NCBI GenBank assembly: GCA_017622845.1
Contig: JAGAQJ010000058.1
Coordinates: forward strand, 1-64,000
DNA length: 64,000 nucleotides
From: Lachnospiraceae bacterium
Lineage (GTDB): Bacteria; Bacillota; Clostridia; Lachnospirales; Lachnospiraceae
Direction: 5' to 3'
A program made the position numbers and the translations under genes. Below the pieces are notes generated by a model, which saw nothing but the letters and a program-made list of their open reading frames with translations, did no database searches and had not been told where the DNA came from. Positions 5,342 through 61,255 of this stretch are shown here, one piece after another (position 1 is the first letter of the stretch; the number at the start of each line of letters is the position of its first letter).

Positions 5342-6484
5342 ATGAAGCGGCTTTGTATATATGTAACATACAACAAAAACAACCAAATAAAAGAATACAT
5401 AGGTTATATAATCAAGGCAATCAGACAATGCGATATGGATATTTGCTTTGTATGTAATTATTTTGAATGTGTAAGCGGCTTAGAATACATACAGCCATAT
5501 GTGAACTGGATATATTATCGTGCAAACACAGGCTATGATTCGGGTGCCTATAAAGACGCTTTATGTGACTTCATAGGATGGGACAAGGTATATGAGTATG
5601 ATGAATTGATTTTGACGAATGATTCTTATTTGGGACCTTTTTTTCCAGTGGAGGATTATTTCAGACAGATGAATTCAGCAGAGTGTGACTTCTGGGGAAT
5701 GACAGGGCAGGCAGCAGGAGAATTTACGAATCCTGTTTATCAATTTGAAGCACATGTCCATAGCTATTTCTTTGTATTCCGGAAAACAGTACTGCATAGC
5801 GAGGCATTTCGGGATTTTTGGAATCAGTTTGAGTATCCCGCAAGTTTTCGGCAGGCTATTATTAATTTTGAAATACAGATAAATGTGTATCTGCGAAAAT
5901 GCGGTTTTAAAGCATCTTCCTTAATTGATTTATGGCATATTGAGCTGGAACGAAATGTAAATCCATTTTTACAGCATCCATATGAACTGATAGCGGAGCA
6001 TCGTTTTCCAATATTGAAAAAGAAAAGTCTTCTTATAAGAAATCCCGGTTTCTCAAGTGCTTTGAGGGCAGTTCAGTATTTAAAAGAAAAAGAGCTTTAT
6101 CCGGCGGAATTGATAGAAGAAATCATAGAAAATCAATTTTACATTCCGGAATTCGGGGAGCAGGAATGTAATAGTCTGGAGAATTTTTATCATCAGCATT
6201 CAAAGATATACATTTATGGAGATGGTGTATGCGGTAGGAATCTGGCGGTTTATTTTGAATACAAGGGCTGGCGTTTTGAGCATTTTCTTGTGACAAACAC
6301 AGAGGAAGCGGATTCAGATGTTATGACTATTGAACAGGTGGATATTGGACCAACAGTCGGCATTATTATTTCCGTAATTAATCCAACAGTAGCAGAAGAA
6401 ATGGCATCAAATATTGGAGAAAGATGCTGTAAAGGACAATTATTCTTTATATCGGAATGTAGATCAATACAGTTACCGATATAA
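5342..6484 (+). CDS. RgpF-like rhamnan synthesis protein with C-terminal Rossmann module
   Basis: A 380-residue protein. Residues 1 to about 270 match the rhamnan synthesis protein F type: the NTGYDSGAYKDAL motif, LTNDSYLGPFF, and a conserved late RNPGF. RgpF proteins act in assembly or side-chain modification of streptococcal rhamnose-glucose polysaccharides. Residues about 288-375 add a Rossmann-like unit (KIYIYGDGVCGRNLA) not part of ordinary RgpF and resembling those in neighbouring proteins. AAGGAG lies 9 bases before the ATG. From here on the G+C content is visibly higher than in the first three genes. A rhamnose-containing glycan is possible, but no dTDP-rhamnose genes are in the window. 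Confidence 0.8.
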   Translation: MKRLCIYVTYNKNNQIKEYIGYIIKAIRQCDMDICFVCNYFECVSGLEYIQPYVNWIYYRANTGYDSGAYKDALCDFIGWDKVYEYDELILTNDSYLGPFFPVEDYFRQMNSAECDFWGMTGQAAGEFTNPVYQFEAHVHSYFFVFRKTVLHSEAFRDFWNQFEYPASFRQAIINFEIQINVYLRKCGFKASSLIDLWHIELERNVNPFLQHPYELIAEHRFPILKKKSLLIRNPGFSSALRAVQYLKEKELYPAELIEEIIENQFYIPEFGEQECNSLENFYHQHSKIYIYGDGVCGRNLAVYFEYKGWRFEHFLVTNTEEADSDVMTIEQVDIGPTVGIIISVINPTVAEEMASNIGERCCKGQLFFISECRSIQLPI

Positions 6485-53715: not shown

Positions 53716-54085
53716 CAGGAAATGTTACAGTTCAGCCTTTTATGCATTCTTATCCGGACGAAAACGGCAGATAGTATCCTTCCGACTGCCATGGATTCCG
53801 AATGGGAATTTCCTAATACGATGAGGAAGGCTTTCAAATGAGCACGGAGCCGGCTCGAGTCGGCATCCATGCCTCCATCTCGCCTAAATTTGCTTCCGTA
53901 CAAATATACTCCTGCTTTGCATATCATCGTATAAGGAAATATCACCATTCTCCACCGAGGCATTCTGCCGGATACTATCTGCCATTTTCTGTTCAGTGAA
54001 ACCATAAAATGGAACAGTTGTCAGTACACAGAAGGGCGGCAGTCCTGATTAAAATATTCATAAGGCTGAACTGTTACCAGGAAAT
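53716..54085. mobile_element. 354-bp MITE with 8-bp target duplication
   Basis: The element spans 53724-54077. Its left end GTTACAGTTCAGCCTT and right end AAGGCTGAACTGTTAC are inverted repeats with one mismatch. It is flanked by perfect direct repeats CAGGAAAT (53716-53723 and 54078-54085). No transposase is encoded. The GTAA-type ends and 8-bp duplication match habits of the IS66 family (established knowledge), suggesting mobilisation by such an element. Inside, a 20-base inverted repeat (53760-53779 with 53970-53989, 19/20) bounds a 210-base core absent from the related copy at 60457-60542. The insertion left the flanking permease genes intact. Confidence 0.8.
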
Positions 54086-57784: not shown

Positions 57785-58811
57785 TCATGACTTCGGTTTT
57801 GGCAGTCTTACCTGAATATATGTGATAATCCTTTTTTCAAAAGGGACCAATGTTTTATGGGCTAATAACAGCAGGAGAAACGTATATATATAAGTTGCTA
57901 ATGGTGTCGGAAACGTGACACTTAATCCCAAAATGCTTGCAGTAACCGGAACGAATGTTTTGATTAAAAACTCGCTACCGCATAAATACAAGGTTTCCCT
58001 TCCGAGAGTATTAAACAACTTAACATTTTGGCAAATATATGAAACAATAAACACAACCAAAATGACGATGCATGGCTTTATGACAGGGAGGTAGAAATCC
58101 AAGAAAGGTATACTTGACAAATTATGTAACAAATCATTTCCAAAGAATAATGCTATTGTGTAAAAGATACTATACCCCCCCGAGTATAAGCACGCTGCGT
58201 GAAAAGAATCCTTTATGGGAAAGCAGAAGGTCTATTTTTTCAAATAGCAAATATCCCAGTGCATAATAAATCAGATAATACATGGCACTATCTACATTAA
58301 ATATCCCCATTGGATCACCATTAAAATAAGTTTCAGCAATTGTGTAGAAAAATAAACTGACACCTAAAATCAATATTTTATATTTCATTTTTTTAATTAA
58401 TGTAAACACTATGCTTACAACAAACAAGCAGGTTAAAAACCACAGACTGCCTGCGAAAAATTGAAGTCTTATTGCACCTTGGACTGCTGAGAGCAGATAC
58501 TCCTTTACAGTATCCTGTGCTGCATTGGTATTGATGGTATGGACAATGATAACTGCGATTGCAAATACGACATATGGAATGAAAATATTTTTAATCTTTT
58601 TATATAAGCTTACAAGAATGCCATCTTGATTCAAGGCTTCTGTACAACCTGATATAAAAAAGAATAATGGTACGTGAAAAGCAAACACAAAATAATGCCC
58701 CCACCCTGCCGCATCTGCAAAATGACCCAGATAAATTGCAAATATGCCAAAAAATTTTGCAACATCAAGCCATTGTACCCTTTTTACTGAATTTGATGAT
58801 TTTTCCATCAT
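57785..58811 (-). pseudogene. Acyltransferase-3 family membrane protein, interrupted at a G7 tract
   Basis: Reading from 58811 gives 213 residues of an acyltransferase-3 / OatA-like membrane enzyme: VQWLDVAKFFGIFAIYLGHF, then FAFHVPLFFFISG with the conserved His, and several spans. It ends at TAG just after a run of seven G on the coding strand (58175-58181). Removing one G joins it in frame to the open frame ending at 57785 (SSIPFLDFYLP... onward), giving about 341 residues, the normal family length. These enzymes acetylate surface glycans or exopolysaccharide. AGAGGAGG precedes the start. The tract suggests slipped-strand phase variation, currently off; an assembly error is the alternative. 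Confidence 0.8.
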
Positions 58812-58937
58812 TTTAAAGTATACCTCCTCTAAAAAGTTTAAAATTATGTATGAGCAAACGTAAGATTGAACAGTTACGAAGTCTGCTATGAGTAGTATAC
58901 ATCAATACAATATGGTTTACAATTATAAAATCCGTTA

Positions 58938-58966
58938 TTGACATTTTAGCAAAGTATGATTATACT
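58938..58966 (+). promoter_or_regulatory. Strong sigma-A promoter for the rtcB leader
   Basis: A perfect TTGACA (58938-58943), a 17-base spacer and TATACT (58961-58966). It lies 68 bases before the small leader ORF. Confidence 0.8.
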
Positions 58967-59033
58967 ATTAGCAAAACAAAGAGCACGAACTTTGTATGGC
59001 AGCGGGAAACCACGATTCGATAAGGAGGACAAC

Positions 59034-59108
59034 ATGCAGTACAGTATCAGAATGAACTTAAATTTAATAACTGATAAACAAGGTGTATTTGTCCCCGGAA
59101 ATCGTTAA
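59034..59108 (+). CDS. 24-residue leader peptide upstream of rtcB
   Basis: ATG at 59034 is preceded by AAGGAGG (59021-59028 region) at good spacing and reads 24 codons to TAA at 59106-59108; the peptide begins MQYSIRMNLNLI and ends VFVPGNR. It has its own promoter and a terminator 35 bases after the stop. The last seven codons (59080-59101) can pair with 59133-59152, which is also the left arm of that terminator. This arrangement is typical of ribosome-controlled attenuation. It could alternatively be a free-standing small protein. Confidence 0.65.
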   Translation: MQYSIRMNLNLITDKQGVFVPGNR

Positions 59109-59152
59109 GGGTATCTTATATATTTATTATATTTTCCGGATAAAAACACCTT
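59080..59152 (+). promoter_or_regulatory. Candidate antiterminator hairpin
   Basis: 59080-59101 (start AAGGTGTATTTG) pairs with 59133-59152 through 7 base pairs, one mismatch, 7 more pairs including a G-T, then 5 pairs beyond a 2-base bulge. The right arm overlaps the terminator stem by about nine bases, so the two structures exclude each other. Confidence 0.6.
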
Positions 59153-59168
59153 ATGTTGAGGTGTTTTT
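59143..59168 (+). terminator. Terminator between the leader ORF and rtcB
   Basis: A 9-bp stem (59143-59151 with 59159-59167) with a 7-base loop and T7 run lies 145 bases before rtcB. No second promoter was identified between it and rtcB, so it probably acts as an attenuator. Confidence 0.8.
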
Positions 59169-59312
59169 TTGTTGTAAAAATATTCACTCATGAACAAGAT
59201 GTTTGCTTAATCCGGCATTATATGAATGAGAATGGATATGCATCATGAAATGGCTGTTGCGGCAAAAAAACATTTTCAAAAGAATGCTTTAATAGTAAAA
59301 GGAAGGATTTTT

Positions 59313-60440
59313 ATGCTTACAATATACGGAAAATATACAAACGCAGTTGTTTATACGATTGACAATGAGCAGTATGCCATTGATGATTATGCACGCAGCC
59401 AGCTCCAGATGATTTGCAATCACCCAAGTGCGGAAGGAAGTAAGATACGTGTTATGCCGGATGTTCACCCCGGAAAGGTTGGTACGATTGGTCTGACGAT
59501 GACAGTCGGAAGCTCGCTGATGCCCAATCTGGTTGGAGTAGATATTGGCTGCGGCATGACACTTGCAAAAATTAAATCCAAAAATATTGAGTGCCAGAAG
59601 CTTGACACGGTGATTCGTGAACATGTGCCTGTCGGCGGAAAAGTCAGAAAGACGGCGCATAAGCTCAGCGATGCGGCAGAGCTTCACCAGTTACGGTGCT
59701 ATAAAGCAATTGATACAGCAAAAGCAGAGTTAAGCATCGGAACGCTTGGCGGAGGAAATCATTTTATTGAGGTTGACAAGGACGAGGAAGGACTCTATCT
59801 CGTCATTCATTCCGGCAGCAGGCATCTTGGAATCGAGGTTACAGAGTATTATCTGAAAGAGGGACAGAAAATGTCCCAGATGAAAAAGCAGGGATATGCT
59901 TCGTATGATTTGACCTGTCTGGAGGGAACTCTGTTAGAGGATTATTTACATGACTTAAGCATCGTACAGGAGTTTGCAAGGCTGAACAGGGAAGCCATGA
60001 TTGACGAAATTGTTCGCGGTATGAAATGGCGGATTGCGGACAGCTATACCTGCATACATAACTATATCGACTTTTCTCAGACAGTACCCATTTTAAGAAA
60101 GGGCGCAATCAGTGCCAGGGAAGGGGAAAAGGTTATCATTCCCATCAATATGCGTGACGGCATTATTCTGGGCACAGGACTTGGAAATGATGACTGGAAT
60201 TGTTCCGCGCCTCACGGTTCAGGACGTATTTACAGGCGCTCCGAAGTAAAAGAACATCATACGGTTTCTGAATTTAAAAAGGAAATGAAAGGTATTTATT
60301 CCGTCTGCATTAATCAGGATACGCTGGACGAATCACCGTTTGCCTACAGGAGACTTGAGGATATCGCCGATGCTGTCAGGGAAACAGTAGCGGTGGAGCG
60401 CATTATAAAGCCTGTCTATAACTTCAAGGCAGGTGGGTGA
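59313..60440 (+). CDS. rtcB: RNA-splicing ligase RtcB
   Basis: A 375-residue RNA ligase joining 2',3'-cyclic phosphate and 5'-OH ends using GTP and Mn2+. LVGVDIGCGM holds the metal-binding Asp and Cys, GTLGGGNHFIEV and HSGSRHLG provide His ligands, and CSAPHGSGR contains the guanylylated His. GGAAGG at 59301-59306 supports the ATG at 59313; a longer reading from 59226 is rejected. In bacteria RtcB repairs toxin-cleaved tRNA or rRNA. No archease or RtcA gene adjoins it. Confidence 0.94.
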   Translation: MLTIYGKYTNAVVYTIDNEQYAIDDYARSQLQMICNHPSAEGSKIRVMPDVHPGKVGTIGLTMTVGSSLMPNLVGVDIGCGMTLAKIKSKNIECQKLDTVIREHVPVGGKVRKTAHKLSDAAELHQLRCYKAIDTAKAELSIGTLGGGNHFIEVDKDEEGLYLVIHSGSRHLGIEVTEYYLKEGQKMSQMKKQGYASYDLTCLEGTLLEDYLHDLSIVQEFARLNREAMIDEIVRGMKWRIADSYTCIHNYIDFSQTVPILRKGAISAREGEKVIIPINMRDGIILGTGLGNDDWNCSAPHGSGRIYRRSEVKEHHTVSEFKKEMKGIYSVCINQDTLDESPFAYRRLEDIADAVRETVAVERIIKPVYNFKAGG

Positions 60441-60475
60441 GGCAGTTTATCCCGGATTTTAATCAGGACTGCCTC
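60441..60475 (+). terminator. Hairpin terminator of rtcB, partly built from a repeat remnant
   Basis: GAGGCAGT (60439-60446) pairs with ACTGCCTC (60468-60475), and the enclosed sequence folds further. The 3' arm belongs to the truncated repeat at 60457-60542. Only a weak T-rich tail follows. Confidence 0.55.
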
Positions 60476-60542
60476 CCTTCTGTGTACTGACAACTGTTCC
60501 GTTTTCGTCCGGATAAGAATGTATAAAAGGCTGAACTGTTAC
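60457..60542 (-). repeat. Truncated, shorter relative of the MITE
   Basis: Read on the minus strand this starts GTAACAGTTCAGCCTT (60542-60527), matching the left 43 bases of the MITE (53724-53767). It then jumps directly to the MITE's right portion (54013-54056, one mismatch over about 44 bases). The 246-base interior and the right terminal repeat are missing. Confidence 0.75.
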
Positions 60543-60634
60543 GCAGGCGGAACAAAGTAATAGACATCTGTTTTCGGATAAGGTAAAATAAATAAAAAAG
60601 GGCACAGCTTTGTTTAGGAATGGAGGCAGATGAT

Positions 60635-61255
60635 ATGATAATAACAATCAGCCGCAAAACAGGAAGCGGCGGACATACCATAGGAAAGCTTTTGGCGGAG
60701 AAGCTCGGATATGACTTTTATGATAAAGAAATCGTGGCGGCGGCAGCAAAGGAAATGGGAATTGACGAGAAGCTCATAATGGAAAACGGCGAAAATATGT
60801 CTGAGCAGGATTACATCGATATGAAAAGCGGATTCATACCTTATTTTAAAAAGGCGGAAGTGCCCTATGAGGAAATCAGGGAAGCACAGGATAAAGTAAT
60901 CCACAGCATCGCCGAACAAGGCAACTGCGTTATTGTGGGACGCGGTGCAGATGATATCTTAAGAGAACGGGATGATGTTTTCAGCATATTTATCCATGCA
61001 GGTATGGAGTATCGCATAGAAAGAGTCCGGCGTCATGAAGGAAAAACCAGTCAGGAGGAACGGATTCGGAAAGAGCTGGAACGAAAGGACCGCTCAAGAG
61101 CAATGTATTACAGATATTTCACGCAGAAGGAATGGGGTAAGGCAGAAAATTATTTCCTTTGCCTTGATGCAGGCATTTTTACAAAGACACAATGTACCGA
61201 CCTGATTATACAGGCAGTTGGGATGAAGAAACGCTGCTGTTCAGACAAGACGTAG
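60635..61255 (+). CDS. Cytidylate kinase-like family protein
   Basis: A 206-residue P-loop kinase of the cytidylate-kinase-like family. ITISRKTGSGGHTIGKLLAE is the nucleotide-binding opening with the variant loop of this family, and VIVGRGADDIL and RVRRHEGKTSQEE follow. The start at 60635 has TGGAGG upstream. Members are widespread in Firmicutes, but the substrate is unproven; housekeeping Cmk is usually elsewhere. It may be co-transcribed with nothing: leuS follows after 176 bases. Confidence 0.85.
   Translation: MIITISRKTGSGGHTIGKLLAEKLGYDFYDKEIVAAAAKEMGIDEKLIMENGENMSEQDYIDMKSGFIPYFKKAEVPYEEIREAQDKVIHSIAEQGNCVIVGRGADDILRERDDVFSIFIHAGMEYRIERVRRHEGKTSQEERIRKELERKDRSRAMYYRYFTQKEWGKAENYFLCLDAGIFTKTQCTDLIIQAVGMKKRCCSDKT

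Follow-up and report, generated by a model that had tools for sequence, protein, structure and literature searches.

How might the rtcB gene in this stretch of Lachnospiraceae DNA (64,000 nucleotides, hereafter the window) be controlled, and to what would that control respond? The preliminary description of the locus had proposed that a leader ORF with a switchable terminator governs rtcB, and the parts it listed, namely a near-perfect promoter, a 24-codon ORF with a Shine-Dalgarno (SD) sequence and a terminator with a run of seven Ts, are all present (Table 1). The small ORF and its ribosome-binding site stand between the promoter and rtcB, and the intrinsic terminator, which is the sole plus-strand terminator reported across 58700-60700, stands between the leader ORF and rtcB. 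A separate rtcB promoter behind the terminator had been named as a possible counter-indication, and a consensus scan reported no sigma-70-like site on the plus strand in 59168-59313. The alternative hairpin also lies where it had been placed, as a helix of 18 base pairs (-20.5 kcal/mol) between segments 2 and 3, although the overlap of its 3′ arm with the 5′ arm of the terminator amounts to about eleven bases rather than about nine. Two elements were absent from that description: the leader SD pairs with the TTGTCC of the ORF end, which constitutes a third pairing, and a 5′ hairpin (P1) lies upstream of it. A GUAAC-UUAACC-like stretch precedes the SD in the window and in its relatives. The leader has a single match in the window's own genome, which is itself, and no family of Rfam 15 matched it at gathering score; the 17 matches obtained at a permissive threshold across 58900-59330 were all under that score and were judged to be chance. 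We read the locus as a ribosome-mediated transcription attenuator of four segments, the first of them being the SD of the leader itself, and we give this reading a probability of about 0.7.

Table 1. Elements of the rtcB leader in the window, and a second leader in genome G350 (positions are those of the window, except in the last row, where they are those of locus L193)
Feature	Sequence or role	Position	Strand	Remark
Promoter	TTGACA-17-TATACT	58938..58966	+	11/12 consensus matches
5′ hairpin P1	stem ACAAAG/CTTTGT, loop AGCACGAA	58976..58995	+	stem covariation
Leader SD (segment 1)	AAGGAGGA; able to pair with ORF end	59022..59029	+	
Leader ORF	24 codons and stop; peptide MQYSIRMNLNLITDKQGVFVPGNR	59034..59108	+	
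Segment 2	GGTGT...TTGTCC, ORF end; partner is segment 1 or segment 3	59080..59101	+	
Segment 3	antiterminator 3′ arm; 18 bp with segment 2	59132..59152	+	
Intrinsic terminator	hairpin 59142-59168, T7 59164-59170	59142..59170	+	
rtcB ribosome-binding site	AGGAAGG	59300..59306	+	read from sequence
rtcB	375 aa, RtcB RNA-ligase family	59313..60440	+	Pfam RtcB PF01139, 188.2 bits
Leader before MoxR-like gene, L193 (G350)		5950-6060	minus	

The conservation of these parts was assessed in the RtcB clade of the window, represented by the best 80 of 334 matches in the named collection, which are mostly Lachnospiraceae by their record titles. We examined 80 loci, consisting of the window and 79 of these 80 matches (L035, with 82 bp upstream, was excluded). 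An SD, a short ORF and a TTGTCC-like motif were found at 67 of the 80 loci drawn from the best 80 of 334, and a covariance model (R1) derived from 17 leaders that had been picked for their GCACGA hairpin added L070 and L085, so that a leader is present at 69 of 80; conservation in relatives was a check proposed in the preliminary description. Two loci that are truncated by contig ends (L067 and L097) were scored as not found, and nine (L042, L046, L048, L050, L052, L054, L058, L066 and L091) had no intact leader within at most 1500 nt upstream. Five of these (L046, L048, L050, L054 and L066) form an RtcB sub-clade in which no leader was seen, and in some of them the upstream gene is one that we take to be AraC-like.

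Closer to the window, a search of 98 genomes for RtcB identified, besides the window, 16 same-genus relatives with 79-83% identity. R1 matched 14 of 38 same-genus genomes, once in each, and rtcB was present at 13 of the 14 loci; the fourteenth ends with its contig in G036, whose rtcB opens another contig. Three of the 17 genomes were unmatched by R1: in G016 and G037 (record L042) the SD and the ORF start are missing, while in G025 the locus is interrupted by a contig end. A more distant relative, G024 (65% identity), has a diverged leader beyond the reach of R1, and in G019 (54%; L021) no leader was found by the strict rule described below. The natural deletion in G016 and G037 was considered as a freed switch and rejected, since folding still gives the terminator at 0.99; on this prediction the deletion allele looks broken rather than always on.

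The strict rule asked for three parts in order within 500 nt: an SD, an ORF of 12-42 codons and a terminator. It was satisfied by 49 of 78 upstream regions of the clade (from the best 80 of 334, leaving out the contig-cut L067 and L097) compared with 0 of 234 dinucleotide shuffles, so that the small ORF expected in relatives is indeed conserved together with its terminator. Among 32 other RtcB genes, comprising 29 loci from a TIGR03073 phylum search (L146 was dropped because it had no start) together with L020, L021 and L023, one satisfied the rule, namely L133, the sole protein above the TIGR03073 cut-off among 398 genomes. This comparison set is not wholly canonical RtcB, as L020 is PrfH-linked and is the same place as L182; no leader was found at L020 by the strict rule.

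We then asked whether the alternative pairings are constrained. The terminator motif was present in 61 of the 67 leaders (loci from the best 80 of 334), and the other six stood outside the antiterminator and folding tests. Cognate antiterminator arms paired with a mean of -18.6 kcal/mol, compared with -16.07 for the best mean among 5000 permutations of 54 distinct pairs, and the SD:ORF-end pairing gave -13.19 against -12.71 for the best permutation (58 distinct), although both permutations ignore the relatedness of the loci. Taken singly, the cognate antiterminator arm ranked first in 6 of 54 cases and 42nd or lower in 7. In a 59-row alignment, which was fitted to the structure and keeps relatedness in, 8 of 13 pairs vary on both sides, with a covariation of 0.302 compared with 0.152 when shuffled and at most 0.097 when the same alignment was slid. 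The mutually exclusive antiterminator, which overlaps both the ORF end and the terminator, covaries by a permutation test in which relatedness is kept in. The SD:ORF-end pairing appears to covary more weakly than the antiterminator and P1, being mostly invariant with double changes in three pairs, in one or two rows each. The TTGTCC is kept despite a different reading frame in L062, L080, L093 and L102, and in L064 a TTATCC occurs with the SD GGATAA, which together indicate a constraint at the RNA level. By this comparison the reading frame of the leader is also kept: the other two frames contain 108 and 58 stops per 622 codons, compared with 0 in 683 codons in frame, where the presence of the ORF was itself a condition of selection. 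On the comparison of loci, the proposal that rtcB lies behind an attenuator with a leader ORF, in which terminator and antiterminator act as a switch, appears well supported.

Equilibrium folding was used to predict how the position of a ribosome would affect the choice between the pairings. In the free RNA of the window the SD:ORF-end pairing had a probability of 0.76 and the terminator 1.00. With a ribosome footprint on codons 1-5 the antiterminator rose to 0.71-0.82, falling to 0.33 at codon 6, 0.04 at codon 7 and 0.00 from codon 8 onward. Masking the SD alone raised the antiterminator from 0.00 to 0.64, whereas a mask of equal size upstream of the SD left it at 0.00; the free RNA thus apparently folds into the terminator because the SD occupies the antiterminator strand. 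Among the homologues, masking the SD raised the antiterminator by at least 0.1 in 26 of 61, compared with 4 of 61 for the control mask. It reached at least 0.3 in 7 of 60 as free RNA, in 29 of 60 with the ribosome on codons 1-5 and in 3 of 60 with the ribosome on codons 11-20 (L104 left out), while in L032, L041, L055, L056, L068 and L086 it was at most 0.03 with the ribosome at the start. When the RNA upstream of the ribosome was ignored (the downstream-only model), the window gave 0.80-0.85 at codons 1-7, 0.33-0.44 at codons 8-11 and 0 from codon 12 onward, and homologues reached at least 0.3 at codons 1-5 in 32 of 61 and somewhere in codons 11-18 in 20 of 61, suggesting that the permissive zone may exceed the start region. 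On an equilibrium model only, a fold that depends on ribosome position is therefore predicted in the window and in roughly half of the homologues. In about half of the homologues no switch is visible at equilibrium in these predictions; co-transcriptional folding may favour the antiterminator because its strands are transcribed first.

We infer from these parts and folds that transcription terminates ahead of rtcB and that translation of the leader controls this termination. In untranslated RNA, the SD would pair with the ORF end (1:2), the terminator (3:4) would form and rtcB would be off. Under normal translation, a ribosome that has moved past the start would cover segment 2 as the polymerase nears the terminator, so that 3:4 would again form and rtcB would stay off. 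A ribosome that has initiated and is held on the first few codons would instead hide the SD and leave segment 2 free; the freed segment 2 would pair with segment 3, the polymerase would read through and rtcB would be made. As the physiological signal we infer initiated ribosomes that are unable to elongate, whether through ribosome damage, blocked decoding, drugs or missing early aminoacyl-tRNA, and the response to this failure of elongation would be an RNA-repair ligase. This ribosome-parked-at-the-start logic is a prediction of the folding model. The preliminary description had expected either failed initiation or a stall in early elongation to turn rtcB on. The stall is predicted to favour read-through, and a ribosome stuck at the start is probably right as the inducer; failed initiation is probably wrong, as the free RNA of the window folds into the terminator.

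The leader ORFs also carry peptide-level preferences, which bear on the principal alternative, that of a classical codon-specific attenuator in which the ribosome stalls at given codons, at Asn around codon 8, and reports the state of one tRNA, for example cleaved or uncharged tRNA-Asn. Asn accounts for 139 of 683 leader codons, 2.2 times the expectation from base composition, and its enrichment sits at codons 7-10, while Lys (29 codons) is at 0.36 times expectation; among 61 distinct ORFs, 39 have Asn at codon 8, and the downstream-only model retains some antiterminator at codons 8-11. A codon-based response would also have a precedent in Pseudomonas aeruginosa PA5471.1, in which codons 3 and 4 are important once the CCA ends of tRNAs are defective, as excerpts of PMC13041342 describe. 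Against this, codon 8 is other than Asn in 22 of 61 ORFs, the switch of the window is already off at codon 8 if re-pairing of the SD is permitted, and the Asn-rich stretches may merely hold the RNA unstructured. In addition, RtcB2-PrfH did not protect against colicins E5 and D, which cut tRNA, according to excerpts of PMC9223846. Positions 2-6 of the leaders carry 14-23 different codons each, so that no single amino acid is read there. We regard a codon-specific switch as unlikely. It counts against the four-segment model, however, that it has no use for either the Asn enrichment or P1.

Even less probable is a trans-acting ligand or protein that binds the 5′ hairpin with its GCACGA loop, or the GUAAC-UUAACC stretch, with the leader ORF playing a secondary part. 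The P1 stem covaries (5 of 5 pairs, with 85.3% of cells paired, in an alignment fitted to the structure), and 45 of the 67 leaders (loci from the best 80 of 334) carry GCACGA no further than 140 nt ahead of the SD, against a chance of about 3% per leader from length alone; both exceed what an attenuator needs. However, GCACGA was not found in the remaining 22 leaders, including all 14 of L098-L111, most of which retain the ORF, the motif and the terminator. Moreover, alignments A2 and A3 and model R1 derive from leaders selected for GCACGA, so that its invariance there is no evidence, and the leader matches no Rfam family at gathering score. Finally, the ORF could code for a small protein with a function of its own, or the short transcript could act as an sRNA, with the terminator merely ending it and rtcB having its own promoter. 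This is a very improbable reading in spite of the peptide-level preferences, since the consensus scan reported no promoter-like site on the plus strand in 59168-59313, the relatives differ in frame over TTGTCC and the antiterminator covariation would be left without a reason.

The four-segment attenuator can be set beside known systems. In the trp and his leaders, the pairings 1:2, 2:3 and 3:4 are alternatives and a lack of translation leads to termination. The window shares both properties, but its segment 1 is the leader SD rather than a set of control codons, and its ORF lacks a run of one biosynthetic amino acid. The mef(E)L leader of macrolide efflux in Streptococcus pneumoniae is described as a Gram-positive leader peptide with a Rho-independent terminator and an anti-attenuator; in contrast to the window, its leader has eight residues, is needed for macrolide induction and targets an efflux pump. 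The toiL uORF of E. coli topAI is likewise described as sensing several translation stresses, and tetracycline is reported to stall ribosomes on its start codon, but it works on the topAI RBS and via Rho rather than an intrinsic terminator, and does not involve RNA repair.

We also considered the lineage of the ligase itself. Against the NCBIfam model TIGR03073 (release_rtcB), the window RtcB scored 107.9 bits, below the curated cut-off of 271.8. A FastTree of 61 RtcBs (one method, with several low supports) places PrfH-linked proteins on the deeper branches, with the clade of the window nested among them. No PrfH over the cut-off was found in the window's genome (G000), and its rtcB is followed not by prfH but by other ORFs, which we take to be a cytidylate-kinase-like gene and leuS. 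Within the genus only G010 and G012 have a PrfH over the cut-off, and that of G010 adjoins a second RtcB, itself with a short ORF and a terminator upstream; more widely, such a PrfH was found in 17 of the 397 genomes searched in the family and in 3 of the 398 searched in the phylum. Downstream of rtcB, prfH is found at 14 of 79 clade loci (from the best 80 of 334), and L179 unites a leader of the window's family, rtcB and prfH in one locus. Under a rule looser than the strict rule and with no shuffle control, 16 of 21 rtcB-prfH loci have a short ORF with an SD and 13 of 21 a terminator behind the ORF; these 21 come from 23 PrfH-bearing loci (L163, L164 and L172-L192), leaving out L164, in which rtcB was not found, and L173, in which the rtcB start lies beyond the locus. 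In L189, L190 and L192, which are rtcB-prfH loci of another family, a short ORF stands directly before rtcB with no terminator found between them, perhaps a translational version of the leader.

The preliminary description knew of no described case for rtcB, and here it needs correction. In P. aeruginosa, the RtcB-like armZ (PA5471) is controlled by the leader PA5471.1, responds to ribosome-targeting drugs and shares its operon with a release-factor-like gene (PA5470/PrfH), as set out in excerpts of PMC12057347, PMC3516279 and PMC13159725. Excerpts of PMC13041342 add that defects of the tRNA CCA end work via the leader codons named above, and that armZ is turned on if positions 1-226 of the leader region are removed or an early stop is placed at codon 3. 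Leader attenuation of an RtcB-family gene is thus already known from these descriptions, and the Lachnospiraceae form would be a variant of it: both would combine a leader ORF, transcription attenuation relieved by stalling and a gene of this family. The likeness considered here is one of arrangement and gene family. Among the differences, besides the activation of armZ by deletion or early stop, PA5471.1 is a 13-aa leader of Pseudomonadota while the window leader has 24 codons, the described output of armZ is anti-repression of an efflux pump, and rtcB in the window is not followed by prfH. Cleavage of tRNA, which the preliminary description gave as an example of inducing damage, is a candidate signal. 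The studied relative RtcB2-PrfH shields E. coli from colicin E3, a nuclease that acts on 16S rRNA (PMC9223846, in excerpts that name no leader or attenuator), and the window RtcB resembles this module in branching among PrfH-linked RtcBs but differs in that its genome has no PrfH over the cut-off. We found no leader for rtcB in Bacillota in the open-licence PMC literature, and 'rtcB' is absent from the main text of the attenuator survey PMC2965389.

Some MoxR-like genes likewise carry a leader. The idea that the leader might serve any gene was rejected on a search of the family, which found 8 matches spread over 7 of 397 genomes, 5 of them before rtcB and 1 before a MoxR-like gene; the remaining two were weak (L129, 34.6 bits; L131, 30.5 bits) and were judged to be chance. 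The MoxR-like case is in G350, where, in addition to the leader at rtcB, a second one (42.3 bits) stands before a MoxR-like AAA ATPase gene that is accompanied by one for a DUF2201 protein. Close relatives of this ATPase occur in 11 of 230 family genomes. A leader-like element precedes four of them (L198, L199 and L204 by reading, and L201 by R1 at 28.3 bits), rtcB lies immediately upstream of the ATPase in L200 and L202, and five of the 11 loci have neither a leader-like element nor rtcB upstream.

In many Lachnospiraceae of gut and rumen, an RNA switch that senses how ribosomes move on a leader ORF thus appears to keep rtcB off, and disturbed translation would itself turn the repair ligase on. 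We suggest tentatively, and with much less confidence than the attenuator itself, that this is a broken-ribosome sensor, in which the SD is the switch strand and only an initiated, start-trapped ribosome induces, and that it serves an RNA-repair regulon of rtcB, prfH and the MoxR-like ATPase in Bacillota, in parallel to PA5471.1. If so, ribosomes cleaved in the decoding centre would switch on the very ligase that repairs them, and the regulon would be governed by leaders of a single kind. The use of the SD as a switch strand would separate ribosomes stuck at the start both from no translation and from good translation, which would be an unusual logic. Such a switch would couple the expression of RNA repair directly to how ribosomes function in a large set of bacteria from gut and rumen, would open the inducing damage of RtcB2/PrfH-type systems to testing, and would point to the ArmZ leader of Pseudomonas as an instance of something more general, namely a coupling of this RtcB branch to disturbed translation.

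Several further observations were made at these loci. A gene for a Cys-rich protein of about 60 residues lies between the leader and rtcB at 32 of 79 clade loci (from the best 80 of 334), as in L063 upstream of 4001, and a related gene lies downstream at 5 of 79 of the same loci; the L063 protein matched no Pfam family, and these proteins are possibly the RtcB-associated unknown proteins described in excerpts of PMC6514570. Elsewhere in the window, a TwoAYGGAY RNA (RF01731, 79.8 bits) was detected on the minus strand at 53793-53957. Also on the minus strand, at 57785-58811, one gene, presumably acyltransferase-like, is present as two adjacent ORFs (58170-58811 and 57785-58132) and is perhaps broken.
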